Assembly: GCA_009700405.1 (NCBI GenBank)
Contig: WLMD01000002.1
Coordinates: forward strand, 1 to 49,470
DNA length: 49,470 nucleotides
Direction: 5' to 3'
From: Actinomycetota bacterium
GTDB taxonomy: Bacteria > Actinomycetota > Actinomycetes > Nanopelagicales > Nanopelagicaceae
The position numbers were made by a program, and so were the translations under genes. Within the stretch, counting starts at the first letter, position 1. The number at the start of each line of letters is the position of its first letter. Of the stretch, positions 12,600 to 49,470 are shown one piece after another. The notes below the pieces were generated by a model. That model was not told the origin of the DNA. It saw only the letters and a list, made by a program, of their open reading frames with translations, and did not search any database.

Positions 12600-12605
12600 G
12601 AGTAA

Positions 12606-12611
12606 AACCTA
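12606..12611 (-). promoter_or_regulatory. Leaderless-type -10 element of the trkA pair
   Basis: On the minus strand TAGGTT is followed after 6 bp by the ATG of the CeoB-like gene. Confidence 0.55.
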
Positions 12612-12626
12612 CACCTGATTGCCCCA

Positions 12627-12632
12627 TAGAGT
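12627..12632 (+). promoter_or_regulatory. Leaderless-type -10 element of the TRAM methyltransferase gene
   Basis: TAGAGT lies 7 bp before the ATG at 12640. This selects 12640 over the TTG at 12619, which lies upstream of the -10. Confidence 0.55.
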
Positions 12633-12639
12633 TGGCTCT

Positions 12640-13842: not shown

Positions 13843-13854
13843 GGAGAAAATGAG

Positions 13855-13874
13855 GTATCTTGACGTCAAGATAC
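13855..13874. promoter_or_regulatory. Perfect 20-bp palindrome, putative operator of acnA
   Basis: GTATCTTGACGTCAAGATAC is a perfect inverted repeat without a spacer, ending 18 bp before the acnA ATG. The position over the presumed promoter suggests a repressor or activator site for a dimeric regulator. The regulator is not known from this window. Confidence 0.7.
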
Positions 13875-13892
13875 TTCAAGTTGGGGGCATTC

Positions 13893-16553: not shown

Positions 16554-16594
16554 TTGAGTAAAGGGCCCAGCGCTCGTTAGCAGTTAGTCACCTG

Positions 16595-18709: not shown

Positions 18710-18711
18710 GA

Positions 18712-19911: not shown

Positions 19912-19965
19912 AAGGTCAGAGTCCTTTTGCATCAACGAGAAGCCGAGTTGGCCGCAGGTAAAATG

Positions 19966-20808
19966 TTACCTGCCAGTAGCCCCAGAAGAAACCTTTTGGG
20001 AAAGGTTTGAGATAGGTGTCACATAGGCAAAAATGGTTGCGCTTACGTAGGTTGCCCAGAAGCCAATTTGTAACCATGTTGTGAGCGTTGAAAATCCGAT
20101 TGTTCCTGCAAGCAGGCTGGCTAGGAGCGAATCTGAAGAGAGTTGTGATTCAAGATCCCAGGCAGTAGATGAAAGTCCGGGGAGCCACCCAATTGATTGC
20201 AAATCTCCAATTCCATGGGAAAGAACTCCAGCAGCAACAACGATTAACGCGATGCCAGTGATTTGAAAGAATTTTCCGATATTGAAAGTTATCGACTTGC
20301 GGTACATCATCGCACCCAGGGCTACAGCTGCACTGAGTCCGAGTATTAGTCCAACAGTAGGTGCTTGGGATGTTCGCACTGTTTGAAAATTTGTATACAG
20401 GAAGAGTGCAGTTTCTAAGCCTTCTCTGGCAACCGCAAAAAAAGCAGTAGCAGCCACTGCAATAACACCAAGGCCTACGGCGTTATCTACCTTACCTTCG
20501 AGTTCTCGTCCTAGCGTCCGAGCGGTGCGCTTCATCCAAAAAACCATTGCAGTAACAAGTACTACCGCGAGAATCGAAATGACCCCTGCGAAAGCAGCCT
20601 CAGAGCGAGGTGCTAATTCGTGGGATGTGAATGTAAGGATTGCTCCTAAGCCCAGACTTAAGGCCACTGCAGCAGTGACGCCAGCCCATAGGGCTCCTCG
20701 CAGATGGAGGCGATTGCTCTTGGTTAAATATGCACGGAGAATTCCCACAATAAGGGCGGCTTCGAGCCCTTCACGAAGGGCGATAATGAAAGTGCTGAGC
20801 ACATGCAT
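19966..20808 (-). CDS. FTR1/EfeU-family high-affinity iron permease
   Basis: A 280-residue polytopic membrane protein with seven or so hydrophobic segments. Both hallmark iron-binding motifs are there: ALREGLEAALIVG in the first helix (residues 10-22) and VAREGLETALFLY in the fourth. Bacterial EfeU imports ferric iron, usually with the periplasmic EfeO and peroxidase EfeB encoded alongside; neither is in the window. It starts 9 bp after the RNase D stop and is probably cotranscribed with rnd and fadA. Confidence 0.9.
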   Translation of the reverse strand: MHVLSTFIIALREGLEAALIVGILRAYLTKSNRLHLRGALWAGVTAAVALSLGLGAILTFTSHELAPRSEAAFAGVISILAVVLVTAMVFWMKRTARTLGRELEGKVDNAVGLGVIAVAATAFFAVAREGLETALFLYTNFQTVRTSQAPTVGLILGLSAAVALGAMMYRKSITFNIGKFFQITGIALIVVAAGVLSHGIGDLQSIGWLPGLSSTAWDLESQLSSDSLLASLLAGTIGFSTLTTWLQIGFWATYVSATIFAYVTPISNLSQKVSSGATGR

Positions 20809-20817
20809 AATCTACGA

Positions 20818-22116
20818 CTAGAGGGGTATTTTCGCAACTTCAATGTTGCGTAATTCATCACTTTCTTCCGGTACGGGCAGCGGTTCACGCTCGAGAAGTG
20901 CTGCCGTGAGGATGGGCGCGACAATCTCTATCTGCCATTGTCGGGCGCCAAGCTCGCTCAATGTGGCCGCAGCATCGCTGGGAGATAGCCAAATAACGCG
21001 GCGCACAGTATCTGGGCTGATCAGATTCTCTACAGGGATAGAAAGTTCTTCTGCCCGGATTTCTAGATTAAAGCGTGCATGGGAGTAAGGGGCAAATTTT
21101 TCAGGGTATCGCTCGCGCCAAATCTTTATAGGAGGCAGGGATTCAGTGGCCAAACGAATAGGAGGCCAATGACTTTCAGGGATAGCTATTGCCTGAGCAA
21201 TAGCATCGAGCCAAATTTGAGTCCGCTCTAGCCATCGCGCTCGCGCGCCAAGTGGCCGCAAAACTTTTTCAAGCTCTTTGCGGGTGATAGGCGCATGTAC
21301 CGCTAATTCAAGCAAGGCTGTATCGGAGAGCAGTTTTCCTGGTGCGATATCAGTCTCTCGCGCAATCGTGTCACGTGCATGCCAGAGTGTTTTGATTATT
21401 GCTAACCGATCACGTCTCTTAATTTTGTGCATTCCTGATGTTCGCCTCCACGGGTCAATGCGCGGTGGAGATGGTGGGGCGTTGAGGATTGCCGAGAATT
21501 CTTGAGCAGCCCATTCAGATTTTCCTTGAGAATCTAAGATTGCCGAAATCTTTTCGCGAAGTTCAATGAGAAGTTCTACATCAAGTGCTGCGTAGGTAAG
21601 CCAATCCAATGGGAGAGGACGTGTGGACCAATCAACGGCGCTATGTTCTTTGGCAAGCACAAATCCCAAATGCGCTTCAATGAGTGGGCCCAATCCAACG
21701 CGAGGGAGTCCAGCGATGCGTCCACCTAATTCGGTATCAAATAATTTCAGTGGATGAATTCCTACTTCTCGCAAACATGGCAGGTCTTGAGTACTGGCAT
21801 GCAAGATCACTTCATCGCTTTGCAATATCTCATTGAGTTGAGCAAAGAGATGATGTGGTTCTCCATCAATTGGCCCGAAAGGAATAGGGTCGATGAGGTG
21901 CAAGCCCCCGCCATGGCGTTTAATCTGGATGAGATAGGCACGTTGGCTGTATTTATATCCAGAAGCACGTTCGGCATCGACAGCAAAGGCGCCAGTACCA
22001 TGAGAGAGCTCCTCGAGCGCCCTGGCAAATGCGATTTCAGTATCGATAACGTGAGGCGTTCCGCCCGCAGGAAAGAGCAGAGCAGGAATTACAACTGAGC
22101 CATCATCTTCGTCCAT
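20818..22116 (-). CDS. rnd: Ribonuclease D-like 3'-5' exonuclease with HRDC domain
   Basis: A 432-residue protein. The DEDDy exonuclease domain shows Exo I FAVDAERASGY, Exo II HASTQDLPCLREVG and Exo III TYAALDVELLIEL (the Tyr of the DEDDy class). A central HRDC domain and an actinobacteria-specific C-terminal HRDC-like region follow. The family trims the 3' ends of structured RNAs such as tRNA. It lies 3 bp behind DUF3000, a conserved actinobacterial pairing. Confidence 0.92.
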   Translation of the reverse strand: MDEDDGSVVIPALLFPAGGTPHVIDTEIAFARALEELSHGTGAFAVDAERASGYKYSQRAYLIQIKRHGGGLHLIDPIPFGPIDGEPHHLFAQLNEILQSDEVILHASTQDLPCLREVGIHPLKLFDTELGGRIAGLPRVGLGPLIEAHLGFVLAKEHSAVDWSTRPLPLDWLTYAALDVELLIELREKISAILDSQGKSEWAAQEFSAILNAPPSPPRIDPWRRTSGMHKIKRRDRLAIIKTLWHARDTIARETDIAPGKLLSDTALLELAVHAPITRKELEKVLRPLGARARWLERTQIWLDAIAQAIAIPESHWPPIRLATESLPPIKIWRERYPEKFAPYSHARFNLEIRAEELSIPVENLISPDTVRRVIWLSPSDAAATLSELGARQWQIEIVAPILTAALLEREPLPVPEESDELRNIEVAKIPL

Positions 22117-22119
22117 AAA

Positions 22120-22707
22120 TTAACGGCGCGCCTTAGATGCTGAAGGGGTAATGGATCGAACGCCTTCAGGTACTGGTGCTAAGCCAGCAATTTCAGCAAG
22201 GAGATTGCACCAACCAGAAAGATGATCAAGAATTTCTGCGGGCTTAGTAATAACTGGCGTCCATGATGCTCGAATTTCCATTTCAGCCTCATCGCTTCGC
22301 TGCGAAAGTTTTCCAAAGGACGAACTTGCAACTCGAGTGACGGTGCCACTTGCGGATACATATTCACATCCGGCGTTAGTAAGAGAATCCAACATCCACT
22401 TCCAGCCAACCTCAGGCAACAAAGGATCCTCTTGCATCATCGGATCAACATCAGCGCGGACAAATGTTACACAGCGAAATTCTCCGTCCCATGTTTCTTG
22501 TCCGCCAGGTTCGTGAAGTACAACAAATCGACCCGATGCAATTTCGTCTTCATCATCGCCAAGCAAGCCATTGCTGACATCGGCAGAAAAAGCAAATGCA
22601 TACGTTGCTAATTTTTGTGGAGCGGGAACTTCCTCGAGCAAAATCTCAGATCGAGTTGTAAAGGCTCGCAAAGTCTGCGCCAGTTGTTCAAATCCCATTG
22701 CGTCCAC
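22120..22707 (-). CDS. DUF3000 family protein
   Basis: A 195-residue actinobacterial protein of unknown function. Recognised by RSEILLEEVPAPQKLATYAFA, RFVVLHEPGGQETWDGEFR and MQEDPLLPEVGWKWML, and by its place directly before rnd. No catalytic motif or membrane segment is seen. The GTG start at 22707 is supported by TAGATT 6 bp upstream. Confidence 0.9.
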   Translation of the reverse strand: MDAMGFEQLAQTLRAFTTRSEILLEEVPAPQKLATYAFAFSADVSNGLLGDDEDEIASGRFVVLHEPGGQETWDGEFRCVTFVRADVDPMMQEDPLLPEVGWKWMLDSLTNAGCEYVSASGTVTRVASSSFGKLSQRSDEAEMEIRASWTPVITKPAEILDHLSGWCNLLAEIAGLAPVPEGVRSITPSASKARR

Positions 22708-22713
22708 TGTTCA

Positions 22714-22719
22714 AATCTA
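22714..22719 (-). promoter_or_regulatory. Leaderless-type -10 element of the DUF3000-rnd-iron permease-fad unit
   Basis: On the minus strand TAGATT is followed after 6 bp by the GTG start of the DUF3000 gene. Confidence 0.55.
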
Positions 22720-22755
22720 AAGTTAATCATGGTTAAAGCGTGGGAGGCTGGGCGG

Positions 22756-22761
22756 TAACAT
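22756..22761 (+). promoter_or_regulatory. Leaderless-type -10 element of the EamA transporter gene
   Basis: TAACAT lies 7 bp before the ATG at 22769, with no ribosome-binding site. Confidence 0.55.
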
Positions 22762-22768
22762 TCCACTC

Positions 22769-23611
22769 ATGGCAATAGCACTCGCACTGTTTTCTAGTGT
22801 CTTATGGGGAAGCGCTGATTTTGAGGGTGGGAGATTAGCCAAGAGATTTCCTTCCTTGGCTGTCACTGGTGCCTCCCAATTCATTGGACTGTGTTTTGGA
22901 GTCGTTCTTGTTACAGCTTCTGGGGTATGGCGATTGCCCGCATTTGGTCCCAACGGTTACCTGGTATCTGGATTCTTCGCCGGCATCTTTGGCTACTTCG
23001 GTTTGGTCTGTCTTTACGCGGGTCTAGCTTCGGGGAGAATGGGAGTTGTTTCTCCTATTAGTTCATTGTGCGCAATCATTCCTCTCACCTACGCATTGAT
23101 TAGCGGAGAGCGACTCTCATTACTTGCAGGAATTGGCATTTCCGTTGCATTGCTTGGCGCCTTTTGCGCTAGTGGACCAGAGATTTCTCAACGACTTCCA
23201 TTGAAACCTTTGCTCTACGCCCTTGGCGCACTTTTTGGCTTTGGAACAAGCTTAACTTTTATGGCGCGAGGCTCTGCATCTAGCGCGCTTATGACTATGG
23301 TTTTTATGAGAGTTACTACGTTGTTCATTTCACTTGCAGTTGCATTTGCGCGAAAATCTTTTGGTGGCTTTCGAACCCCTCGTGATTTTCGTTCACTGGC
23401 ATTTATTGGAGTAGCGGATTTTTCAGCGAATGTATTAATTGGTATGGCGTCCACTCGCGGATTGGTCTCTGTAGTGATGGTGTTGGGTTCACTCTTTCCT
23501 ATCATGACCGCAATCTTGGCATTTAAAATATTGCATGAGCGACTTCATTACATTCAGTACATCGGAATCTTCTTTGCGGTATTAGGAGTAGGAATTATTT
23601 CTGTTTCTTAA
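22769..23611 (+). CDS. EamA/DMT-family transporter
   Basis: A 280-residue protein with about ten hydrophobic segments in two EamA repeats: SSVLWGSADFEGGRLAK starts the first, and the second ends with the typical LGSLFPIMTAILAFKILHERL and GIFFAVLGVGIIS. It is likely a drug/metabolite transporter of the inner membrane; the substrate is unknown. Its 3' end overlaps the convergent RibD-C-like gene by 17 bp. Confidence 0.88.
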   Translation: MAIALALFSSVLWGSADFEGGRLAKRFPSLAVTGASQFIGLCFGVVLVTASGVWRLPAFGPNGYLVSGFFAGIFGYFGLVCLYAGLASGRMGVVSPISSLCAIIPLTYALISGERLSLLAGIGISVALLGAFCASGPEISQRLPLKPLLYALGALFGFGTSLTFMARGSASSALMTMVFMRVTTLFISLAVAFARKSFGGFRTPRDFRSLAFIGVADFSANVLIGMASTRGLVSVVMVLGSLFPIMTAILAFKILHERLHYIQYIGIFFAVLGVGIISVS

Positions 23612-24107
23612 TAATCGGCCCAGAACACGAAAAAAACTGCGTTCCATCTACTAATTCTTCAGTTATCTCCTGGAAATTTTTGAGAAGGTTTTGAATATCG
23701 AGTAAACCTTCGCCACCGGTAATCGGAGTGATGCTTAATTCAAAGTCATCTATTTTGCCCAGAGCCAGCAGTTCTAAAATAATCGAAGGACCTGCTTCAA
23801 TGCCTATGTTTTCGCCGAACTCTTTTTCAGCGCGGGCAATTGCATCTGCGGGAGCCATTTGCCACCAGTGGGCTTGGGCATTTTTCTCAAGGAGACTTGG
23901 ACGAGAGCGGGAAAGAATTACCAGGGGAGAGGGCGTTTGCAGGTAGCGCTCACTGTTGGCCGTTTGTCCGCCGATTATTAAGCAATCAAAATCCCTACGC
24001 CGGCGCAAAAATCTTTCGCGGTCAGCGGCGCTAGAAAGAGGTTGCGAGGATCCATTCTTCGTACTTGACCCATCGGCCCCCAGAACCAAAGATGCCGTAG
24101 TAGCCAT
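23595..24107 (-). CDS. RibD C-terminal/dihydrofolate-reductase-fold protein
   Basis: A 170-residue protein of the RibD_C/DHFR-like reductase family. The start ASLVLGADGSSTKNGSSQPLS, the LIIGGQTANSERY segment, the strand LVILSRSRP, and IGIEAGPSIILELLALGKIDDFELSITPITGGEG match the fold's NADPH-binding layout (the G-G/EGGP-like loop is here EAGPS). In actinobacteria this family lies near an NlpC/P60 gene, as here. It may be a pyrimidine reductase, but no rib genes are adjacent and the substrate is open. Confidence 0.8.
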   Translation of the reverse strand: MATTASLVLGADGSSTKNGSSQPLSSAADRERFLRRRRDFDCLIIGGQTANSERYLQTPSPLVILSRSRPSLLEKNAQAHWWQMAPADAIARAEKEFGENIGIEAGPSIILELLALGKIDDFELSITPITGGEGLLDIQNLLKNFQEITEELVDGTQFFSCSGPIIKKQK

Positions 24108-38586: not shown

Positions 38587-39336
38587 ATGAGCGATGTTTT
38601 GGCAAGAATTGATGGATCTGTACTCGTTTTGACGCTCAATCGGCCCGCGAAAATGAACGCGATAACACGCTCGATGTACCTCGGGTTATCCCGACATTTG
38701 CAGGAGGCAGCCGATGACTTCGCAATCCGTGCAGTCATTTTACAGGGCGAAGGTGATCATTTCACTGCCGGGAACGATATCTATGATTTTGTAGAAGAGC
38801 CTCCTACTGGCCCAGATTCTCCAGTGAGTAAATTTCTTGAATCAATTCATAATTTCCCCAAACCGCTATTAGCCGTTGTTTCGGGAAACGCAGTGGGTAT
38901 TGGTACGACAATGCTTTTTCATTGCGAAATTGTTTTCGCCACAAGCACTGCTAAATTTTCAATGCCATTCGTCTCCCTTGGTTTAGTTCCAGAAGCTGGT
39001 TCAAGCTATATCTTCCCCCAACTGGTCGGGTATCAAGAAGCGGCACGAATTTTCCTTACGGGAGATAGTTTCTCTGCTGATGATGCAAAACGATATGGAC
39101 TTGTAAGCGTTGTGGCAGATGATGCCAAGGAGCAGGCTCTTGCAATGGCTCATAGAATCGCAATGCAGCCACCAACATCTGTCATAAATACTAAGGCGCT
39201 ATTAAAGGCACGATCTCACGAAGCAATATCGGCGGTGATGCTCGTTGAGTCAGAGCTATTCATGCTGGCATTACAATCAGATGAAGCGATGGCAGCGTTT
39301 ATGAAATTCACATCGAGAAGTTCACAAGGAGATTAA
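38587..39336 (+). CDS. Enoyl-CoA hydratase/isomerase family protein
   Basis: A 249-residue crotonase-fold protein. The oxyanion-hole segments are EGDHFTAGNDIYDF and SGNAVGIGTTMLFHCEIVF, and VSLGLVPEAGSSYIFPQLVG holds the position of the second catalytic Glu (here PEAGSS). The first Glu position (usually GGG-x-E) is not obvious (GIGTTMLFHCE), so it may be an isomerase or another CoA enzyme and not a standard hydratase. It heads a tight operon with an HSDL2-like SDR. Confidence 0.85.
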   Translation: MSDVLARIDGSVLVLTLNRPAKMNAITRSMYLGLSRHLQEAADDFAIRAVILQGEGDHFTAGNDIYDFVEEPPTGPDSPVSKFLESIHNFPKPLLAVVSGNAVGIGTTMLFHCEIVFATSTAKFSMPFVSLGLVPEAGSSYIFPQLVGYQEAARIFLTGDSFSADDAKRYGLVSVVADDAKEQALAMAHRIAMQPPTSVINTKALLKARSHEAISAVMLVESELFMLALQSDEAMAAFMKFTSRSSQGD

Positions 39337-39338
39337 AG

Positions 39339-40169
39339 ATGAGTCTTGCTGGGAAAAGAATTTTCATTACCGGAGGTTCTCGCGGAATTGGATTGGCGAT
39401 TGCGCTAAAGGCCGCTCATGATGGCGCATCCATTGCCATTGCAGCCAAGACTGCAGAACCCAATCCTAAACTCCCTGGAACGATTTATTCTGCTGCCGAG
39501 GAAATTCGCCAAGCAGGAGGCATAGCTCTTCCGATTCAATGTGATTTACGAGATGAAAACCAAATCCTGCAGGCAGTTAATGACGCTGCAAAAGAATTCG
39601 GTGGCATCGATATTCTTATTAATAATGCAAGTGCCATTAATTTGACTCGAACAGAAGAGACACCGGCTAAACGTTTTGATTTGATGTTTGATGTAAATGT
39701 CCGTGGAACTTTTCTCACTTCGCAAGCTGCGTTGCCATTTCTTCGAGAATCCGCTTCGGCCGGAAGAAATCCTCATATTTTGACGCTATCGCCTCCGCTT
39801 TCAATGAAGGCTAAATGGTTTAAGAATCATGTTGCCTACACGATGGCCAAATATGGGATGAGCATGTGCGTTCTGGGGATGTCTGAAGAATTTCGCCGCG
39901 ACGGGATTGCCGTCAATGCTTTATGGCCCCGAACAGCTATTGATACAGCTGCTTTGGCAATGATTCCAGGAGTAGATATTGCGGCTTGTAGGACCCCGGA
40001 AATCCTGGCTGACGCGGCATATGCCATTTTCAATAGGCCAGCGAAGGAATGCACGGGTAATTTCTTCATTGATGATGAAGTCTTGGCCAGTGAGGGCATT
40101 ACCGATCTTGATAAGTATTCAGTCGTACCCGGTACGACTGACTTTTTAGCCGATTTCTTTCTTGATTAA
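39339..40169 (+). CDS. HSDL2-like short-chain dehydrogenase/reductase
   Basis: A 276-residue SDR close to the hydroxysteroid-dehydrogenase-like-2 family. Cofactor motif ITGGSRGIGLAIALKAAHDG, INNASAINLTRTEETPAKRF, the serine in LSPPLSMKAKWF and the active-site YTMAKYGMSMCVLGMSEEFR are seen, with the family phrase ALWPRTAIDTAAL. HSDL2 proteins are linked to lipid metabolism but have uncertain substrates. AAGGAG precedes the ATG, and the gene is 2 bp after the hydratase. Confidence 0.87.
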   Translation: MSLAGKRIFITGGSRGIGLAIALKAAHDGASIAIAAKTAEPNPKLPGTIYSAAEEIRQAGGIALPIQCDLRDENQILQAVNDAAKEFGGIDILINNASAINLTRTEETPAKRFDLMFDVNVRGTFLTSQAALPFLRESASAGRNPHILTLSPPLSMKAKWFKNHVAYTMAKYGMSMCVLGMSEEFRRDGIAVNALWPRTAIDTAALAMIPGVDIAACRTPEILADAAYAIFNRPAKECTGNFFIDDEVLASEGITDLDKYSVVPGTTDFLADFFLD

Positions 40170-40199: not shown

Positions 40200-41672
40200 A
40201 TGTCGAATCAATCTGTAAATCCACGCACGGGTGAAAAATTTGGTCCCGTCTTTGCCGCAACAACACCGCAAGCGATGGATTCGCTAATTGCCCAATCGGT
40301 TTCGGCATATAAAGTCTGGTCTCATGTTAAAGCCGCTGAGCGAGGAAAAATTCTCCTGGCCCTAGCCCAAGCAATTGATGACCGCCTTCAAGATCTCGTA
40401 GATATAGCGGATCTGGAAACGGGGCTAGGAAAAGTCCGACTCACTGGAGAAGTTGGACGAACAACTTTTCAAATTCGCTCTTTTTCGAATGCGCTAGAAC
40501 GAGGAGAATTTGTAACACCTTCGCTAGATGAAGCCGTTGATGCAGCAGTACCGCAAGGGCATCCAAAATTCCTACGCACGACAAGAGGAATCGGACCAGT
40601 GGCAATATTTGGTGCAAGTAATTTCCCATTTGCATTTAGCACTCTTGGCGGGGACACGGCCTCAGCCCTTGCTGCTGGATGTTCGGTAGTCATCAAGGCA
40701 CACCCTGCGCATCCGCAGACTGCGCAATTAACTTTTGACATTGCCAAGAAAGCGCTACAAGAGGCTGGGGCGCCTGAGGGTTTAATTTCTTTGGGCCATG
40801 GGTTTGAATTCGGAAAATTGGTGATTACAGATCCACGCATATCGGCCGGAGCCTTTACTGGTTCACGCGCGGGAGGAAGAGCGTTATTTGATTTGGCTCA
40901 ATCTCGAGAGTACCCAATACCTTTCTACGGCGAACTAGGAAGCGTAAATCCCGTAGTGGCTGTTGAGAGCGCTCTTACAGATCCCGCTGCATTTGCTGGC
41001 GCGTACTTAGACTCGTTGCTCATGGGTAATGGACAATTTTGCACTAACCCAAGCGTTCTTTTCGTTCCTGCAGGTTCGATCGTTGTGAATGAAATCTCCA
41101 AACAGATTGCGCAGCGCGATCTCGCTCCCTTCCTCAGTGAAGCTACTAAGAATTTGCACGATTCCAATCGGGCAAAGGTAATTGCATCAACGAAGGCCGA
41201 AATTTATGAGGGTAAAGCCCCATCAGGCGCAGGTTTCTTTTCTGCCCCAATGGTTCTCGTTGTTAAGGCAAGTGATGTCACACGCGAAATTTCTGGCATC
41301 ACTGAAGAATGCTTCGGTCCAACCGGAGTCGTTGTGACATATGGCCACCACGGCGAAGTTGTAGAACTCTTAAGCAAGATGGAAGGCGCTCTCGCGAGTT
41401 CTCTTTTCGCTTCAGCGTCTGATTCATCAGCTCCGACTCTTATCGAAGCACTGGCATCGATGTCGGGTCGTGTGGCATTTAACGCATGGCCAACTGGAGT
41501 GGCTGTTACTGCTGGCCAACATCATGGAGGGCCATATCCGGCTTCAACTTCTTCTTTGCATACTTCAGTTGGAACGCAGGCAATCAATCGATTCTTGCGC
41601 CCAGTAACCTTTCAAGGCTTGCCCGATGAAATCTATTCCGCGCTTCAATCAACCACCACTAAGGAGAAATAA
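40200..41672 (+). CDS. NADP+-dependent aldehyde dehydrogenase, ketoglutarate-semialdehyde type
   Basis: A 490-residue aldehyde dehydrogenase of the 2,5-dioxovalerate (alpha-ketoglutarate semialdehyde) dehydrogenase class: IFGASNFPFAFSTLGGDTAS and CSVVIKAHPAHPQT are typical, with catalytic Glu in FYGELGSVNPV and nucleophile Cys in MGNGQFCTNPSVLFVP. Family members oxidise 2,5-dioxovalerate to 2-oxoglutarate in sugar-acid and hydroxyproline breakdown. The substrate here may differ. GGGGAG lies before the ATG, and the FAH-family gene follows after 2 bp. Confidence 0.88.
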   Translation: MSNQSVNPRTGEKFGPVFAATTPQAMDSLIAQSVSAYKVWSHVKAAERGKILLALAQAIDDRLQDLVDIADLETGLGKVRLTGEVGRTTFQIRSFSNALERGEFVTPSLDEAVDAAVPQGHPKFLRTTRGIGPVAIFGASNFPFAFSTLGGDTASALAAGCSVVIKAHPAHPQTAQLTFDIAKKALQEAGAPEGLISLGHGFEFGKLVITDPRISAGAFTGSRAGGRALFDLAQSREYPIPFYGELGSVNPVVAVESALTDPAAFAGAYLDSLLMGNGQFCTNPSVLFVPAGSIVVNEISKQIAQRDLAPFLSEATKNLHDSNRAKVIASTKAEIYEGKAPSGAGFFSAPMVLVVKASDVTREISGITEECFGPTGVVVTYGHHGEVVELLSKMEGALASSLFASASDSSAPTLIEALASMSGRVAFNAWPTGVAVTAGQHHGGPYPASTSSLHTSVGTQAINRFLRPVTFQGLPDEIYSALQSTTTKEK

Positions 41673-41674
41673 GA

Positions 41675-42520
41675 ATGAAACTTGCACGCCTTGGCGAATT
41701 TGAGAAAGAGAGAGCTGCGGTCATCGTTAGCGACACGGAAGCAGTATTTGTTGATGACGTTGTAGGAGACTGGAATAGAACTTCTCTTGAGGCTGGGGCT
41801 GTTGCAAAGGTTGCGGCGATGGATTTATCTTCGCGTCCGCGAGTTGCGATTTCTGACTATCGGTTGGGATCTCCAGTTGCTCGTCCGACCAAAGTAATTT
41901 GCGTAGGTTTGAATTACGCCCAACATGCCCTTGAGTCAGGAATGAATCCACCAGCAGAACCTGTAATTTTCATGAAGGCTCCAGATACCGTTGTTGGCGG
42001 CTTCGATGACATCATCGTCCCTCCAGGTTCAGAAAAGACTGATTACGAAGTTGAGTTATGTGTCGTTATCGGCAAGAACGCCCTCTATTTGAAATCTCCA
42101 GAGGACGCTAAGGATCACATTCTTGGCTACACGATTTCCCAAGATGTGTCAGAGCGTCATTGGCAAATTGAACGCAGTGGACAATGGGTTAAGGGAAAAT
42201 CTTTTCCATCCTTTAATCCGATGGGACCATGGATCGTTACCGCTGATTCGTTAAATCCTCATGACTTACGTTTATGGTGCACGATAGATGGCCAATCTCG
42301 ACAAGATTCGCGCACAAGCGATCTTATTTTCGGCATTGATCATTGCATCTGGTACATCAGCCAATTCATGGAGTTGAAAGCTGGCGATATCATCAATACA
42401 GGCACTCCACAGGGAGTGGGCATGGGATTCAAGCCCGAAAAATACATCCACGGCGGTGAAATCGTTGAGACAGGAATTGAAGGCATCGGAACTATTCGTT
42501 CCGCAGTCCGTAAAGCCTAA
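41675..42520 (+). CDS. Fumarylacetoacetate-hydrolase-family protein (2,4-diketo-3-deoxy-acid hydrolase-like)
   Basis: A 281-residue FAH-fold enzyme. Conserved: VICVGLNYAQHALESGM, FMKAPDTVVGGFDDI, metal ligands in TDYEVELCVVIGK, QDVSERHWQ, KGKSFPSFNPMGPWIV and GDIINTGTPQGVGMG. The KGKSF-x4-PMGPW form is that of acylpyruvate or 2,4-diketo-3-deoxy-L-rhamnonate/fuconate hydrolases, which cut a C-C bond giving pyruvate plus a hydroxy acid. AAGGAGA precedes the ATG. It ends 11 bp from the end of the facing enolase-like gene. Confidence 0.87.
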   Translation: MKLARLGEFEKERAAVIVSDTEAVFVDDVVGDWNRTSLEAGAVAKVAAMDLSSRPRVAISDYRLGSPVARPTKVICVGLNYAQHALESGMNPPAEPVIFMKAPDTVVGGFDDIIVPPGSEKTDYEVELCVVIGKNALYLKSPEDAKDHILGYTISQDVSERHWQIERSGQWVKGKSFPSFNPMGPWIVTADSLNPHDLRLWCTIDGQSRQDSRTSDLIFGIDHCIWYISQFMELKAGDIINTGTPQGVGMGFKPEKYIHGGEIVETGIEGIGTIRSAVRKA

Positions 42521-42531
42521 ACTCTAAAAAA

Positions 42532-43806
42532 CTAGAATGGCTTACTGAAGTTTGTTTCTTCGGTAGCGTCAATTTCAAGTAATCGGTTCCACTTTGCTGT
42601 TCGCTCTGAACCATGAGTTGAACCAACTTTGATTTGGCCTGCGCCCCAACCCAGGGCCAAGTCAGATAACCAGCTATCTTCGCTCTCACCTGAGCGCGCC
42701 GAAACCACAGTCGTGAAATGTGATTCCTTAGCTTCCTTCAAGACCTCGAGAGTGTTAGAAAGAAGTCCGTTCTGATTTGGCTTAATTAAGATGGAATTCG
42801 CGCTTTTTTCTGTGATGCCCTTGTTCAGGCGCCCACTATTAGTTGTGAACAGATCATCGCCAACAACTTGAATAGGTCGAGGGAGATTTGCAAGAAAATA
42901 TGACCAACTTTGCCAATCGTCTTCGGCAAATGGATCCTCAATAGAAATAATAGGTTGGTTGGACAACAACTGGATAAGTTGGTCGTGCCATTGCCGCGAT
43001 GAATAAACCTTCCCTGTGCTTCGAGAAATATAATTTCCCTGGTCGAAGAATTGAGTTGCTGCGATATCTAAAGCAAGGCTCACATCGCGCCCAGGTGTAA
43101 GTCCAACGGCTTCAATGCATTCAACAACAAAAGCACACGCTTCATCCGATGAGGAGAAGGCGATTCCGAGCCCTCCTTCATCAGCGACAAGATTGGTAAC
43201 AAAGCCTCGTGATGCACCGAGCTTGGCTGCACTTTCACGAATGGCAACTACCCAAGAAAGCGCTTGCGTCACGCTTTCGGCACCATTGGCGATAATCAGG
43301 ACATCTTGGATATCGAGGGCGCCTCTAGCATGAGCTCCACCCGAGAGGATATTCACCATCGGCATTGGCATTGTGAGCGAACCCGTTGGTTGAAAGAGTC
43401 TGGCTAGAGATTGTTGCCCGGCATGCGCCTGTGCAATTGCGGTGACAATGGATACGGCCAATGTTGCGTTCGCACCCAAATTTTCATGACGAGTAGTTGC
43501 ATCTAGCTCTGTCATCGCATCGTCGGCTTCTTGAAAACGTGGTTGACGTGCAATCAGGAGCGGTGCAATCTGTGTGTTGATGTTGTTGATTGCTTGATAG
43601 ACGCTCGATCCTTGAAAGAATTTTTCAGAGTATGCGCCTTGCGCATCTCGTAATTCGTGCGCCTCGTGTCGCCCAGTTGAAGCACCTGAAGGCACCGTTG
43701 CTTTATGAACGCTTCCATCGCTTAAAGTCATCCGCGCACATACTGTAGGCCGACCACGGGAATCCAACATTTGAATTCCCATCAGCCCTGTTATCGAGGT
43801 AGTCAT
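42532..43806 (-). CDS. Divergent enolase paralogue with altered active site
   Basis: A 424-residue enolase-fold protein: MLDSRGRPTVCARM, VPSGASTG (39-45), GGAHARGALDIQDVLI, VADEGGLGIAFS, LALDIAATQFF, SIEDPFAEDDW, VVGDDLFTTN and ILIKPNQNG. By memory alignment to E. coli enolase the metal ligands, Lys342, Arg371 and Lys393 equivalents are kept. Glu168 becomes Asp (DIQD), and the active-site His370 becomes Ala370 (VVSARSGESED). It is therefore unlikely to be the glycolytic enzyme. It overlaps the kinase gene by 4 bp, suggesting work on that kinase's phosphorylated product. Confidence 0.85.
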   Translation of the reverse strand: MTTSITGLMGIQMLDSRGRPTVCARMTLSDGSVHKATVPSGASTGRHEAHELRDAQGAYSEKFFQGSSVYQAINNINTQIAPLLIARQPRFQEADDAMTELDATTRHENLGANATLAVSIVTAIAQAHAGQQSLARLFQPTGSLTMPMPMVNILSGGAHARGALDIQDVLIIANGAESVTQALSWVVAIRESAAKLGASRGFVTNLVADEGGLGIAFSSSDEACAFVVECIEAVGLTPGRDVSLALDIAATQFFDQGNYISRSTGKVYSSRQWHDQLIQLLSNQPIISIEDPFAEDDWQSWSYFLANLPRPIQVVGDDLFTTNSGRLNKGITEKSANSILIKPNQNGLLSNTLEVLKEAKESHFTTVVSARSGESEDSWLSDLALGWGAGQIKVGSTHGSERTAKWNRLLEIDATEETNFSKPF

Positions 43807-44783
43807 AACTCTGAGAATACTTCAGTCAGGGAGGGTGGGTCTTCACTTTGCAAAATGCCAAGGCATGTATTTCGAAGGTTGCTCTGCATCTCTGGGTTTA
43901 AATATGAAACAGGAGATACTCCATCTACACGGGCGAGGGAAATGGCCGCGACATGCCAAATAAATGTCGGAGAAGCAGGCCGGCCTAGTGACTGCTCATA
44001 GCGCTGGAGGAAAGAGTAAGCAGATTGTGCAATTTTAGTTTTTGCGGTGAGAGTGCCAACATATTCGGATTTCGTCAGCAGGTGACCTAGGAGGAATCCT
44101 AAATCGAAAACAGGATTACCGGCATGTGCCACTTCGAAATCTAGGATTATCGGCACATTGCTTGAGGAGACCAAGATGTTTTTGGGGGAGTAATCACCAT
44201 GCACTAAAGCGGTTTTATTATTTTCAAGTTCATCGATTAAAGATGATATGCGCCTATTGATGCTCTGATGACGAAGAGCGATTGCCCGATAAAAGGGAGA
44301 TATGCGTAATTGCTCAAAGAGCGTATCTTCTTGGAATTGATCAAGTATGAGCGGCGCTGAAGTGTTCTTATGCCATTTGCCAAGAATCTCTCCAACATCA
44401 CCTGCAACGACAGGGAGTATTTTCCCGGCCAGCATGTCTTCTTTCCAGTTCGTGACGCTTCGAGGTGCGCGTTGGAGGATAACCACAAAACGTTCTGGAT
44501 CGCATTCAACGAGAGCGGGTACATTCTCTGGAGTAATCTCCTGATACACCTGCAGCGCATTAGCTTCAACAATTGCACGGCGTTGGTCTGCGCTCCATTT
44601 TTGAGCGACCTTCAATTCAGGGAGGGCCTGTTTCACTACTAGGTCTCGACCTTCTCCTGAAACAGCGAGAACTACATTAGATACGCCACCAGTAAGAATT
44701 TCAACAGCTACGTCGGCAGAATCAGAAAAAATATTTCGAGATTTTAGATAGGCAACGACAGAGTTTTCATCAAGTAATTGCAC
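43803..44783 (-). CDS. APH-fold small-molecule kinase (methylthioribose-kinase-like)
   Basis: A 326-residue protein kinase-like (APH) enzyme. The N-lobe has LTGGVSNVVLAV and VVKQALPELKV, similar to 5-methylthioribose kinases; the catalytic loop is ALVHGDYSPKNIL (Brenner HGD-x4-N) and the metal loop is ILDFEVAHAGNPVFDLGF. It lacks the wider MtnK context (no mtnA or mtnB nearby). It is probably a metabolic kinase and not a drug-resistance gene, given its coupling to the enolase-like gene and SDR. Confidence 0.85.
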   Translation of the reverse strand: MQLLDENSVVAYLKSRNIFSDSADVAVEILTGGVSNVVLAVSGEGRDLVVKQALPELKVAQKWSADQRRAIVEANALQVYQEITPENVPALVECDPERFVVILQRAPRSVTNWKEDMLAGKILPVVAGDVGEILGKWHKNTSAPLILDQFQEDTLFEQLRISPFYRAIALRHQSINRRISSLIDELENNKTALVHGDYSPKNILVSSSNVPIILDFEVAHAGNPVFDLGFLLGHLLTKSEYVGTLTAKTKIAQSAYSFLQRYEQSLGRPASPTFIWHVAAISLARVDGVSPVSYLNPEMQSNLRNTCLGILQSEDPPSLTEVFSEL

Positions 44784-44792
44784 AGGGATAGA

Positions 44793-45479
44793 TTAAGGCA
44801 GGTAGGTAACCGAATGCGCGTTATCTACCATGACACTTTGGCCAGATATTCCGGTATTGAGTTCACTTCCCAACAGATAGACGCCATTTGCGACATCTGC
44901 CGCAGTAACTAATCTTCCGATAGGCGTAGATTCCACGAGATGATCAAATTGCTCGGGAGCCAGAGTATTTCGAGTCATAGGTGTATCTACAACTCCAGGA
45001 AGGATTCCATTAACCAAGATTCCATGTGATCTACCTAAGTCCACCGCTAAGGAGCGAACGAGGCCCCCAACTGCAGCTTTTGACACTGTATAGGCCAATT
45101 TTTCTTTCCGGGTGAAGATTTCAGCGATAGAACTGATGATTACTATGTGTCCATTTCGAGCAATCGCACACTCGCGCATAAGAAATTTAACTTTCTTAAC
45201 GATGAAGCCGACATTTGCTTCAAAGAGATCGGTGATTGCTTCATCACTTGTCGTAAGCACGGTGCCGTTCATGTTGGCGCCTTGTGCAAAAACAATAGTA
45301 TTGAAATTCGATTCTTCAAAAGGGGATGCGCTTTTGAAAGGGAGGACTATCTCATTAGGCAATCCGACGGGTACTCGAACAACAGGAAATACATCCCAGC
45401 CATGATTGATGTAGGTCTGAGATATTGCAGAACCGAGTGCCCCGGTAGCGCCAAAGAGGAGTACGCGCTTATTAGCCAT
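44793..45479 (-). CDS. Short-chain dehydrogenase/reductase (island, reverse operon)
   Basis: A 228-residue classical SDR: cofactor motif FGATGALGSAISQTYINHG, VFAQGANMNG (NNAG-like), the serine in IISSIAEIF, and YTVSKAAVGGLVRSLAVDLG. The C-terminus has LPGVVDTPM. The lack of an Asp after strand 2 (FPVVRVP) hints at NADP, but weakly. It lies between the U32-like and kinase genes and is read in the same direction with gaps below 12 bp. Substrate unknown. Confidence 0.87.
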   Translation of the reverse strand: MANKRVLLFGATGALGSAISQTYINHGWDVFPVVRVPVGLPNEIVLPFKSASPFEESNFNTIVFAQGANMNGTVLTTSDEAITDLFEANVGFIVKKVKFLMRECAIARNGHIVIISSIAEIFTRKEKLAYTVSKAAVGGLVRSLAVDLGRSHGILVNGILPGVVDTPMTRNTLAPEQFDHLVESTPIGRLVTAADVANGVYLLGSELNTGISGQSVMVDNAHSVTYLP

Positions 45480-45481
45480 GA

Positions 45482-46411
45482 TTATCTACCTTCGTATCCG
45501 TATCGTGTGAGCATGGAGTAACCAATAGCGGCGCGACGAACTCTTTCGCGTCCCGTTGATTCGATTACTCCCTGGATGTGTCCACCGGCGGGATATAGAC
45601 CCGGTGAGTTTCTGACTGTGAATTTGAGGTAGACAGGAGCTGCCACCCTCACCAAGTCAGGAATTTCATAGTGACGAACTACTCCGCCGAAGTCATCTGG
45701 CCCCTCGACATATACATCGAGAGGGATATCAACTTGCGCGCGAATGGCAGCAATTTGTTGCAACGAAAGATCTGTCGCAAGATTCAAAGTGGATGCGCCA
45801 AGGTCGGCGAGTGTTTGCGCAGTTGCCGCATTCGTGCAAGGTAGCGCTACTGAGGTTTTGAAAATGAAATCACTCGGGAGGTCTCCACGCTTTCTTGCTT
45901 CCCCGAGTACTTTGAGAAGACCCAAATCTCCAACGAGAACAGAACGAAGACCAAGAGATGCTCCGTGGAGTACATCTTCTACGGCGTATCTGAGTTGATC
46001 GTTTCCTCGAAGAGTCGGAGAGGCGACGCCACCTGCAGTAGAGAGTGGTTGCTTGCCGATATCCCAGGCTGCTCGTGGACCAACAAAGAGACAGACTTCA
46101 AGATTATTCTCTTTTCCAAGTGCAACCATTTCGCGAATTTCCTGATCGGTCTGCATCATGATGCCTGATCCTTGGGAGATTCGATGAAATTTTACATTGA
46201 GTTTTTTTGCCTCATCCAATACGGCGCGAAAAGCGCTTGGTCCTTCAACGGATGGAATTTCAATTTTCCAACGATCTCCATCGGGAAATCTTTTAGTCGA
46301 TTCCGGTAACCCATCGGCGTCTTGGCTTTGAATATTTTGGGCGCGCAATAATGCGATTGACTCTTTCATGGGCCCTTTCGGGTCACGCGTGGAGGGCCAA
46401 GAACTTTCCAT
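45482..46411 (-). CDS. U32-peptidase-like TIM-barrel family protein
   Basis: A 309-residue protein of an actinobacterial family usually named 'U32 family peptidase'. The core reads RFPDGDRWKIEIPSVEGP, VKFHRISQGSGIMMQTDQEI, LFVGPRAAWDIGK and DVYVEGPDDFGGVVRHYEIP, in a repeating beta/alpha pattern. I see no peptidase active site that I can name; U32 relatives include hydroxylases and other TIM-barrel enzymes. It starts the reverse operon, with GGGAGCG before the ATG. A lyase, hydroxylase or binding role in the pathway is possible. Confidence 0.75.
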   Translation of the reverse strand: MESSWPSTRDPKGPMKESIALLRAQNIQSQDADGLPESTKRFPDGDRWKIEIPSVEGPSAFRAVLDEAKKLNVKFHRISQGSGIMMQTDQEIREMVALGKENNLEVCLFVGPRAAWDIGKQPLSTAGGVASPTLRGNDQLRYAVEDVLHGASLGLRSVLVGDLGLLKVLGEARKRGDLPSDFIFKTSVALPCTNAATAQTLADLGASTLNLATDLSLQQIAAIRAQVDIPLDVYVEGPDDFGGVVRHYEIPDLVRVAAPVYLKFTVRNSPGLYPAGGHIQGVIESTGRERVRRAAIGYSMLTRYGYEGR

Positions 46412-46554: not shown

Positions 46555-47310
46555 ATGAGCCAGAACAGTTCTTTTGAGGGCCAAGTTGTTATGGTCGTTG
46601 GTGCTGGAAATGGAATTGGCCGCGCAACTCTTGGCCTATTAATCGAGCGCGGTGCGCGGGTGTTCGCCCTAGATAATAATCAGGACGCACTATCTGAGAT
46701 TCAAACCCTTTTTTCCTTGGGTAGCGATCAAGTGAAGGCTTTGGATGTATCTGATGAAGAGGCGATCAAGAAAGTTGTAGCCGAAATTTTCGCCTCTGAA
46801 GGAAGAATTGATGCGCTAGTTAATTCAGCCGGGATGACCGGACCTACTAATCGTCGCCTCAATACAATCACGTGGCCGGAGTTCGAACGCGTTCTGCAAG
46901 TAAACCTCTTTGGCGCGATTTGGCTCACTCAGCAACTGATACCAATTATGCAAGGCCAAAAATATGGTCGAATAGTTCATGTCTCATCAATTGCTGGCAA
47001 AGAAGGCAATCCAGGCATGTCGCCATATGTCACCTCTAAAGCAGGAATGATCGGGTTTATTAAAGGTGTTGCCAAAGAAGTAGCAACAGAGGGAATTTCC
47101 ATTAATGCTGTTGCTCCAGCAGTGATTCGCACACCTATGAATGCTGACACGAGTGATGAGACCCTTAAGTACATGATCGCCAGAATTCCTATGGGCCGAG
47201 TGGGCGAAGCCGAAGAGGTAGCGGAGACTATTTGCTTTGCGGCATCTAAGGCTTGCTCTTTTACTACAGGCTTTACTTTTGATACTTCTGGTGGCCGCGC
47301 AACGTACTAG
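46555..47310 (+). CDS. SDR of the 2-keto-3-deoxy-L-fuconate/rhamnonate dehydrogenase type
   Basis: A 251-residue SDR: VVGAGNGIGRATLGLLIERG, VNSAGMTGPTNRR, HVSSIAGKEGNPGMSPYVTSKAGM, IPMGRVGEAEEVAE, and the C-terminus FDTSGGRATY. The GKEGNP block and SGGRATY end are those of 2-keto-3-deoxy-L-fuconate and -rhamnonate 4-dehydrogenases, which make a 2,4-diketo acid that a FAH-family hydrolase then cleaves; such a hydrolase is encoded at 41.7 kb. It is transcribed alone, divergent from the reverse operon. Substrate assignment is by family. Confidence 0.85.
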   Translation: MSQNSSFEGQVVMVVGAGNGIGRATLGLLIERGARVFALDNNQDALSEIQTLFSLGSDQVKALDVSDEEAIKKVVAEIFASEGRIDALVNSAGMTGPTNRRLNTITWPEFERVLQVNLFGAIWLTQQLIPIMQGQKYGRIVHVSSIAGKEGNPGMSPYVTSKAGMIGFIKGVAKEVATEGISINAVAPAVIRTPMNADTSDETLKYMIARIPMGRVGEAEEVAETICFAASKACSFTTGFTFDTSGGRATY

Positions 47311-47317
47311 AAGTTAA

Positions 47318-48064
47318 TTACAAACGGCCAGCACTATGCAGTGCGCCGAGAAATTCTTTGAGACGATCTGTTTGTGGGTTGTTCAAAATCTCTGTTGGAT
47401 TTCCTTCTTCGTGGATTTTTCCATCCGCTAAGAAAATTACATGGTCAGCAATTCTTTTTGCAAAGCCCATCTCGTGCGTGGCTATAACCATCGTCATGCC
47501 TTCGCTTTTGAGTTCAGCGATAAGAGTTAATACTTCTGCAATGAGTACAGGGTCAAGGGCGCTCGTTACTTCGTCTAGGAGAAGCAACTTTGGACTAGTG
47601 GCAATTGCCCGAATGATGGCAACTCTCTGCTGTTGTCCACCACTGAGCAGATCTGGATAGCCACGCGCTTTTTCGGCAAGACCAAAACGTTTCAGAAGTG
47701 CCATAGCATTTTCTTCAGCGTCATTGCGGGAAACACCATGGACTAATCGCGGCGCTAGCGTGATATTTTCCAAGACACTCAGGTGTGGGAAAAGATTAAA
47801 AGCCTGAAAGACAGATCCGATATTGCTACGCACTTTATCCATATTGGTACCGAAGGCGGAGATGTCTTCTCCATCAAGGAGAATTTGTCCATCATCAATC
47901 TCCTCAAGAAGATTAATACAGCGCATGAAAGTGCTCTTGCCAGAGCCGCTTGCACCAATTACGACGTTTACTGAATGCTCAGGGATTGACAGTGAAATGT
48001 CATCTAGAACTAGCTCTGATCCGTAACATTTGCGCAGATTCTTTACTTCCAGGACCTTTCTCAT
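47318..48064 (-). CDS. Polar amino-acid ABC transporter, ATP-binding protein
   Basis: A 248-residue ATPase of the GlnQ/HisP type: Walker A VIGASGSGKSTFMRCINLL, signature LLSGGQQQRVAIIRAI, Walker B LLLLDEVTSALDP, and ATHEMGFAKRIADHVIFL with the switch His. The start is the ATG 48064, 2 bp after the permease stop; the track start at 48118 lies inside the permease. It works with the permease and binding protein upstream. Confidence 0.94.
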   Translation of the reverse strand: MRKVLEVKNLRKCYGSELVLDDISLSIPEHSVNVVIGASGSGKSTFMRCINLLEEIDDGQILLDGEDISAFGTNMDKVRSNIGSVFQAFNLFPHLSVLENITLAPRLVHGVSRNDAEENAMALLKRFGLAEKARGYPDLLSGGQQQRVAIIRAIATSPKLLLLDEVTSALDPVLIAEVLTLIAELKSEGMTMVIATHEMGFAKRIADHVIFLADGKIHEEGNPTEILNNPQTDRLKEFLGALHSAGRL

Positions 48065-48066
48065 CT

Positions 48067-48915
48067 CTACCACCGTCCCTGTTGTTTTTGTTTGGCATCT
48101 TGTCGTCGAGCCAACCAATCCGTAAGTCGGGTGAGGGGGATTGTCATCAAGACAAAGAAAGTTCCTGCAACCAAGTAAGGAGTGAAGTTAAAGGATCGAG
48201 CCGTTTCAATGCCGGCAGCTCGTATCGCATCTACTGCCCCAAGGACGGAAATGAGTCCAGAATCCTTTTGTAATGAAACCAGGTCATTGAGAAGCGGAGG
48301 CAAAACATTGCGAATGGCCTGGGGGAGGACAACATGGCGCAGGGTTTGGCTGCTAGATAAACCGAGCGCGCGGGCCGCCTGTCTTTGTGCAGGATTTACA
48401 CCTTCAATACCCGCGCGAATTACCTCTGCGACATATGCCGAATACGTGAGTATCAAGGCGACAGTGCCAAGCAAGACAGCAGAGTTAGGAATCCACGTGA
48501 TTCGAAGTCCAGGGATTCCAAGACCAACAAGCAATAGGACAAGAAGCAAAGGAAGTCCGCGAAAGAGATCGGTGTAGAAGGTTGCCACTAGTCGAAGCGG
48601 AAAGAGAATTGGTTGTTTGGTTGTGCGAGCGACTGCAATGAGCAGACCGAAAATTAGAACAAATATCTCGGCGATGATGAGAACTCGCAAATTCAGAAGA
48701 AGACCGTGGAAAACAGTCGGGAGGGCGTGCGATGCATATTTAGCGCTAAAGAATGATGTTCGAACTCGGTCGAAACCCGGAGCCCCTGTGACGACAATGA
48801 CGGCAACGAGGCCGAAAGCAACAGTGCTAACGGCTGCTATGAGAGTGGAACGGCGAGAGGCTCGACGTCGAGCATCTTCGCGCTGCAACTGCAACGACGA
48901 AGGCTTATACGACAT
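48067..48915 (-). CDS. Polar amino-acid ABC transporter, permease
   Basis: A 282-residue permease of the HisM/GlnP type, with about five or six hydrophobic segments after a basic N-terminus (QREDARRRASRRSTL). The family's first-helix block LLLNLRVLIIAEIFVLIFGLLIA and the EAA-loop YVAEVIRAGIEGVNPAQRQAARALG followed by VVLPQAIRNVLPPLLND are clear. Only one permease gene is seen, so it likely acts as a homodimer. Confidence 0.93.
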   Translation of the reverse strand: MSYKPSSLQLQREDARRRASRRSTLIAAVSTVAFGLVAVIVVTGAPGFDRVRTSFFSAKYASHALPTVFHGLLLNLRVLIIAEIFVLIFGLLIAVARTTKQPILFPLRLVATFYTDLFRGLPLLLVLLLVGLGIPGLRITWIPNSAVLLGTVALILTYSAYVAEVIRAGIEGVNPAQRQAARALGLSSSQTLRHVVLPQAIRNVLPPLLNDLVSLQKDSGLISVLGAVDAIRAAGIETARSFNFTPYLVAGTFFVLMTIPLTRLTDWLARRQDAKQKQQGRW

Positions 48916-48948
48916 CGAGCCCCCCGTTCCGTGAATCTATTCTCGGTA

Positions 48949-49470
48949 TTACTTTAGAACAGGTGCGCCCACAGATGTGGCTAGCCAAGTATCTGCAAGA
49001 GTTTGCAGAGTCCCATTGCTACGTAAAGTATCTACAGCTTTTGTGACGCAACTTGTTAATGAACTGCCCTTTGACAGAACAAGACCAAATTGCTCACCTC
49101 CGGCTTGCGGTGCAAACTGTCCAACAATGAGTCCGCCAGTGAGATCTACAGCTGCGATATAGAAAGCAGTTGGAAGATCAACTACGAGTCCATCAATAGA
49201 ACCGTTGGAAAGTGACTGCTTTGCAATGTCGTTGCTATCAAAGACAGCGGCATCGGTCTTAGGTTTTACGATATCCGTAATTGTGGAATAGGAAGTGGTT
49301 CCAACTGCGGCACCAAGTTTGGCGTTTGCAAGATCTGCAATGGTTTTTGCGTTAGCGATTTTTGAACCCTTGATTGTTACGACTGCTTGCGCAACGTCGT
49401 AATACCCTGAAGAGAAATCAACGGCATTAGCACGCTCTGCAGTAATTGATACTTGATTGATATCAAAATC
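48949..49470 (-). CDS. ABC transporter substrate-binding protein, family 3 (C-terminal part)
   Basis: The window ends inside this gene; 173 C-terminal residues plus stop are open in frame from base 49470, although the ORF track lists no protein here. TAERANAVDFSSGYYDVAQ, then TIADLANAKLGAAVGTTSY and GSIDGLVVDLPTAFYIA are the SBP_bac_3 (amino-acid-type) signature. The C-terminus VTKAVDTLRSNGTLQTLADTW is also typical. It lies 33 bp upstream of the permease and gives the transporter its specificity, which cannot be read from this part. Confidence 0.88.
   Translation of the reverse strand, partial: DFDINQVSITAERANAVDFSSGYYDVAQAVVTIKGSKIANAKTIADLANAKLGAAVGTTSYSTITDIVKPKTDAAVFDSNDIAKQSLSNGSIDGLVVDLPTAFYIAAVDLTGGLIVGQFAPQAGGEQFGLVLSKGSSLTSCVTKAVDTLRSNGTLQTLADTWLATSVGAPVLK

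Follow-up and report, generated by a model that had tools for sequence, protein, structure and literature searches.

The stretch of DNA analysed here, referred to as the window, is 49,470 nucleotides in length and represents one contig (C72) of an assembly that is 1.59 Mb in size, 159 contigs in number and 85% complete. In the window, one gene for an enolase paralogue follows one gene for an APH/MtnK-like kinase on the same strand (Table 1). The reading frames and the short overlap between them are located exactly where the first-pass annotation, made from the sequence alone, had placed them. This overlap recurs in many other loci, and it suggests that translation of the two genes may be coupled.

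Table 1. Positions of the genes and features discussed in the text (residues numbered as in E. coli enolase)
Feature	Position	Strand	Remarks
Enoyl-CoA hydratase/isomerase family protein	38587..39336	+	family match
SDR-family dehydrogenase, PRK08278 subfamily	39339..40169	+	family match
Aldehyde dehydrogenase	40200..41672	+	family match
FAH-family hydrolase	41675..42520	+	nearest to 2,4-didehydro-3-deoxy-L-rhamnonate hydrolase, 257 bits, cut-off 500
Enolase paralogue	42532..43806	-	424 aa, ATG start; complete ORF; candidate 2-phospho-acid dehydratase
Codon for Ala370 (His in glycolytic enolases; SARSG for SHRSG)	42697..42699	-	computed from ORF
Codon for Asp168 (Glu in glycolytic enolases)	43303..43305	-	computed from ORF
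4-bp stop/start overlap, enolase paralogue/kinase	43803..43806	-	ORF coordinates
APH/MtnK-like small-molecule kinase	43803..44783	-	326 aa, GTG start; complete ORF; Pfam APH
Small SDR-family protein	44793..45479	-	upstream, same gene run; in 23 loci
TIM-barrel-like protein, weak Peptidase_U32 match	45482..46411	-	recurs beside kinase in acI; 21 loci
SDR-family dehydrogenase, divergent	46555..47310	+	same position in L022, L023
ABC importer: ATPase, permease, partial solute-binding protein (polar amino-acid type)	47318..49470	-	SBP_bac_3 for the last; ATPase and permease named from sequence reading; putative tie to the module only

The paralogue possesses the two-domain enolase fold. It matches both Pfam Enolase_N and Enolase_C, and the solved-structure search gave enolases; its AlphaFold2 model (pLDDT 90) superimposed on solved enolases in Foldseek with query TM-scores of 0.91-0.95 and sequence identities of 36-41%. 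On the NCBIfam phosphopyruvate hydratase model TIGR01060 it scored 396 bits, above the cut-off of 300.

The kinase matches PF01636 (APH) with 59.4 bits against a cut-off of 23.2, in agreement with the APH fold assigned to it in the first pass. Its catalytic motifs HGDxSPKN and D-x-E are conserved in the kinase alignments; the HxDxxxxN motif and the metal-binding Asp are both present, and His195, Asp197, Asn202 and Asp215 are conserved. The solved-structure search returned MtnK, 4-hydroxytryptamine kinase and ACAD11, the first two being the nearest solved relatives. Different from the window kinase, MtnK of B. subtilis type has HGDLHTGS in the place of HGDxSPKN in the alignment. The best NCBIfam model, MTRK (TIGR01767), gave 87 bits, far below its cut-off of 275; a role in methylthioribose salvage was ruled out by this score and by the neighbouring genes. 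Among the matches listed, the nearest homologues of the kinase come from metagenome-assembled genomes (MAGs) of acI/Nanopelagicales-type actinobacteria, and judging by these relatives the host of the window probably belongs there too.

Compared to E. coli enolase, the window paralogue has Asp168 for Glu, Ala370 for His, Ser155 for Asn and Ala207 for Gly. It retains the metal ligands Asp246, Glu290 and Asp317, the acid-base pair Glu209 and Lys342, and the phosphate- and carboxylate-binding residues Ser42, His159, Gln167, Arg371, Ser372 and Lys393. The first-pass annotation had read Ala for His370, Asp for Glu168 and kept metal ligands and Lys/Arg residues, and the alignment agrees. In one common alignment of 92 kinase-linked enolases, position 168 is Asp in every sequence, position 370 is Ala in 89, Gly in two and Thr in one, position 155 is always Ser or Gly, and position 207 is Ala in 85. 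The retained residues are present in 92 of 92, apart from Glu209 (91 of 92). Conservation in about 90 further loci ruled out chance, a local oddity or a sequencing error, and a pseudogene or dead enzyme is unlikely because the catalytic residues are kept.

The substitutions are not a general trait of duplicated enolases either: second enolases unlinked to the kinase, from L134, L135 and L173 (genomes) and L175-L179 (plasmids), keep Glu168 and His370. L133, a divergent haloarchaeal homologue, has Glu370. In a tree of 128 sequences, the Asp168 proteins were cleanly split from all others with a support of 1.0; the kinase-linked enolases form one clan, and the window paralogue falls outside the glycolytic enolases. 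A normal enolase elsewhere in the genome, which the first pass had suggested looking for, is present on contig C18 of the same assembly and has Glu168 and His370. The module enolases therefore resemble the TIGR01060 enolase in fold and length, in metal ligands and acid-base pair, in the residues for phosphate and carboxylate, and in scoring above the cut-off. They differ from it by Asp168 in all, Ala370 in nearly all, Ser or Gly at 155 and mostly Ala at 207, and also by their separate clan, their genetic tie to a kinase and their coexistence with a normal enolase.

Two loci carry unusual homologues. L016 (Enterobacter chuandaensis plasmid, 10193-24100) contains the sole degenerate-looking enolase, in which Glu209 is changed to Lys and Asp208 to Glu and position 370 is Gly. 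It lies opposite the kinase, followed by a U32-like protein, an oxidoreductase, an aminotransferase, iron-containing redox enzymes and a nucleotidyltransferase; the locus looks like a biosynthetic cluster that has borrowed the module. Haloferacaceae archaeon XH8 (G052; loci L133 and L181) has three enolase homologues: that of the module, a normal one with SHRSG, and a third with Leu159, Tyr208 and Glu370.

A profile scan of species-representative genomes identified at least 559 loci with a relative of the kinase. The best 80 of these (at least) 559 loci are spread over bacteria and archaea and many phyla, with Actinobacteria, Acidobacteria, Planctomycetes, Chloroflexi, Spirochaetes, Bacteroidota, Truepera, Armatimonadetes, Negativicutes, haloarchaea and more among the carriers. 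In plasmid searches, kinase and enolase queries matched the same replicons (Embleya, Sphingobium, Methylobacterium, Rhodococcus and others). We analysed 111 kinase loci. As these were the top matches to the window kinase, with close relatives among them, the counts are not independent; 98 contain an enolase paralogue, which is the adjacent same-strand gene in 90, and the order is kinase-enolase in 88. Conservation of the pair, which had been put forward as a check on the original proposal, is thus confirmed. The distribution is patchy: a kinase match (E ≤ 1e-30) was found in 6 of 297 sampled genomes of the phylum. Both genes were searched for in 19 genomes from the genus of the window: 13 have a second enolase together with the kinase (one of these kinases being only a fragment, 2e-13) and six have neither (Fisher p 4e-5, kinship ignored).

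The paralogue is missing from 13 of the 111 kinase loci, some of which stop at a contig edge; kinases without a neighbouring enolase are found in L054, L058, L062, L073, L087, L089, L091, L096 and L098. Such a minority would be expected if the two proteins did not act in series and the enolase had a scaffolding or regulatory part, or the kinase served another metabolite, and enolases are known to moonlight. However, catalytic residues are retained in both proteins, and adjacency with the 4-bp overlap is found across phyla; we give this explanation very little credence. In L109 (G020:C1 near 37734), from the same genus, the kinase gene is directly followed by an FAH gene and the enolase is absent at that place. 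L030, from a record titled Bifidobacterium breve MAG, shares its gene order with the acI loci, so the title may be wrong; L079 is a kinase locus in a record titled Bordetella parapertussis MAG.

To interpret the substitutions we turned to human ENO2, whose Glu167 and His371 we take to be equivalent to positions 168 and 370 of E. coli enolase; the residue spacings to the neighbouring catalytic residues agree with this assignment. In ENO2 with SF2312 or MethylSF2312, the 5'-OH of the inhibitor hydrogen-bonds Glu167 and His371 (PMC6651268). The residues behind this pair of contacts are replaced in the window paralogue, which has Asp168 and Ala370. In our reading, the inhibitor 5'-OH may correspond to the C3 hydroxyl that leaves the substrate, so the module appears to have changed the leaving-group side of the active site while keeping the residues for phosphate, carboxylate, metals and C2-proton abstraction. 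As the leaving-group pocket is consistently altered, a substrate other than the glycolytic 2-phospho-D-glycerate is probable. The residue pattern argues for a 2-phospho acid that is unlike 2-phospho-D-glycerate on its C3 side, in stereochemistry, substituent or leaving group, although the changes at 168 and 370 could have causes other than the substrate. In the third of these cases, the acid would be a 3-substituted lactate with no free C3 hydroxyl, and the paralogue would expel the substituent to give phosphoenolpyruvate (PEP). In favour of this, precisely the two residues reported to contact the inhibitor hydroxyl are replaced and those holding the rest of PEP are kept; but the neighbouring genes suggest no particular group (sulfite, halide or ether), and we regard it as improbable.

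The kinase/dehydratase module proposed in the first pass is partly supported, by the conserved pair and by the normal enolase elsewhere in the genome. Its chemistry, in which the kinase would make a 2-phospho acid and the paralogue would dehydrate it, agrees with the change in the leaving-group pocket and with the retention of the residues that bind phosphate, carboxylate and metals. The module is real and widespread; its reaction is a reasoned hypothesis. We consider it fairly probable that the two proteins form a dedicated kinase-then-dehydratase module for a substrate other than 2-phospho-D-glycerate, be it a small or an aldonic acid, and the module probably lies outside glycolysis. In the kinase step, ATP would supply a phosphate for the hydroxyl at C2 of a small 2,3-dihydroxy acid; the paralogue would then remove the C2 proton by means of Lys342/Glu209 and two metals and eliminate the C3 hydroxyl, the phosphate staying on the product. 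The leading candidate would be L-glycerate, converted to 2-phospho-L-glycerate and then to PEP. C2 phosphorylation, dehydration, PEP as product and L-glycerate as substrate are all inferred. Among the specific proposals, a pair of enzymes acting on a 2-phospho acid other than 2-phospho-D-glycerate, which would turn L-glycerate or a close analogue into PEP with no redox step, is plausible without being probable; L-glycerate itself as the substrate is our tentative choice.

The neighbouring genes bear on the choice of acid. Our census of the 111 loci had no random-locus control and gives context, not enrichment; it counted SDR proteins (36), FAH hydrolases (33), small SDR proteins (23), 2-hydroxyacid dehydrogenases (21), U32-like barrels (21), aldehyde dehydrogenases (16), MR_MLE proteins (12), sugar permeases (11-12), SMP30 lactonases (11), IlvD (11), PfkB (8) and KDPG aldolases (7). 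No third enzyme was universal in these 111 loci, the kinase and enolase alone being near-common; the product would therefore be a central metabolite that requires no special enzyme, namely PEP. PEP carboxylase occurs in rhizobial clusters (the L007 copy scored 1114 bits, cut-off 815), and FAH hydrolases, SDRs, aldehyde dehydrogenase, HpcH aldolase and 2-hydroxyacid dehydrogenase nearby are possible producers of C3 hydroxy acids. The Sinorhizobium operon L021 contains, in order, an SDR, a UxuA-like dehydratase, SMP30, an unknown protein, the kinase, the enolase, an FAH hydrolase and an SDR. Here the FAH hydrolase would cleave a diketo-hexonate into pyruvate and glycerate and the pair would convert the glycerate to PEP, each known gene being used once.

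For the FAH hydrolases of the window, L008, L018, L021, L030 and L053, the best model is the L-rhamnonate-type hydrolase with 257-368 bits; the two from L005 scored lower on it, 134 and 122 bits. All sampled module FAHs (122-368 bits) thus lie under the 500-bit cut-off for 2,4-didehydro-3-deoxy-L-rhamnonate hydrolase, and they give a weak hint of an L-configured product. Some features fit poorly with L-glycerate: the 2-hydroxyacid dehydrogenases beside the module in 21 loci normally yield D-hydroxy acids, and the KDPG aldolase and KDG kinase of the L050 and L047 clusters would yield glyceraldehyde 3-phosphate, with no obvious L-glycerate source among the cluster genes. The U32-like neighbour in the window is 74-85% identical among acI relatives and almost confined to acI; a sequence search identified no solved relative, and as its model (pLDDT 71) is a generic TIM barrel, it was set aside as a functional clue.

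These surroundings could also be explained by a larger substrate. A C4-C6 aldonic acid would be phosphorylated at C2 by the kinase and then dehydrated by the paralogue to a 2-phospho-enol-3-deoxy acid, so that the same general module takes the place of the ordinary sugar-acid dehydratase; with smaller side chains at positions 168 and 370, there would be space for the C3 substituent. Sugar ABC importers, lactonase, SDR, FAH, KDG kinase and KDPG aldolase all belong to sugar-acid surroundings, and in L047 the kinase, enolase, KDPG aldolase and KDG kinase genes form one run. The operons of L008 (Roseibium) and L018 (Paracoccus) contain FAH and SDR genes, with no ordinary sugar-acid dehydratase annotated within ~12 kb, a gene content that fits an aldonic acid better than L-glycerate. 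However, many clusters already possess an IlvD, MR_MLE or UxuA-type dehydratase, no conserved consumer of the unusual enol phosphate is found among the neighbours, and the PEP carboxylase of the rhizobial clusters would have no explanation. We judge the aldonic acid unlikely, although it is the strongest competitor of L-glycerate.

A more conventional route would start from D-glycerate: the kinase would be a new glycerate 2-kinase and the paralogue an isozyme that converts 2-phospho-D-glycerate to PEP. The TIGR01060 call of the paralogue and the nearby PEP carboxylase agree with this, and an adjoining 2-hydroxyacid dehydrogenase could turn hydroxypyruvate into D-glycerate. A precedent exists in L178 (Paracoccus pantotrophus plasmid), whose operon is annotated tartrate dehydrogenase-glycerate kinase-pyruvate kinase-eno. 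It resembles the module as a catabolic operon in which a hydroxy-acid kinase and a second enolase would together lead to PEP. However, its enolase keeps Glu168 and His370, so D-2-phosphoglycerate would not need an altered enzyme, and Glu168 occurs in none of the 92 module members. A normal enolase is already in the cell, and in L044 a separate glycerate-kinase-family gene adjoins the pair. The D-glycerate route is, in our opinion, quite unlikely. L178 also bears on the statement in the first-pass annotation that no such kinase-enolase pairing could be named: as a precedent it weakens the statement, yet it differs from the module in its normal enolase and annotated glycerate kinase. The window has a different set, an APH kinase and an altered enolase.

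Other known systems resemble the module in part. In LvaA/LvaC and ACAD10/ACAD11, an APH-related kinase phosphorylates a hydroxy acid for conversion by a partner enzyme (PMC12440821). Different from the module, the partner there is an acyl-CoA dehydrogenase and the substrate is the CoA thioester of a 4-hydroxy acid; in the window, the kinase is paired with the enolase paralogue instead. The SDR and FAH neighbours are of the same general type as those of the L-rhamnose diketo-hydrolase pathway (LRA5/LRA6 type), but the module FAHs score below the 500-bit cut-off, and the pathway is not known to have a kinase or an enolase. We found no description of a kinase paired with an altered enolase in open-access papers; subscription journals may hold one. 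A hydroxy-acid kinase with a partner enzyme is already known; what is new here is a clan of altered enolases that comes with a kinase of its own.

As the paralogue scores above the TIGR01060 cut-off, its relatives are probably widely misannotated as glycolytic enolases. Genomes would thus seem to carry spare glycolytic enolases that are probably absent in fact, and automatic annotation would need correcting. Textbooks credit enolase with a single physiological reaction. If our proposal is true, the module would add a second one to those found in nature and give central carbon metabolism an entry that has been overlooked; if the L-glycerate version is true, L-glycerate from sugar-acid cleavage could be used with no redox step.

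The module is also found in other settings. In the anaerobe loci L063, L069 and L093, it occurs with a URO-D/MtaA-type methyltransferase and an unassigned protein of ~415 aa; L063 additionally contains a LarA-type racemase and a lactate permease. On the haloarchaeal plasmids L006 and L017, it lies amid several MR_MLE genes, an ilvC-annotated gene, cupins, chaperonin-family genes and sugar ABC importers.
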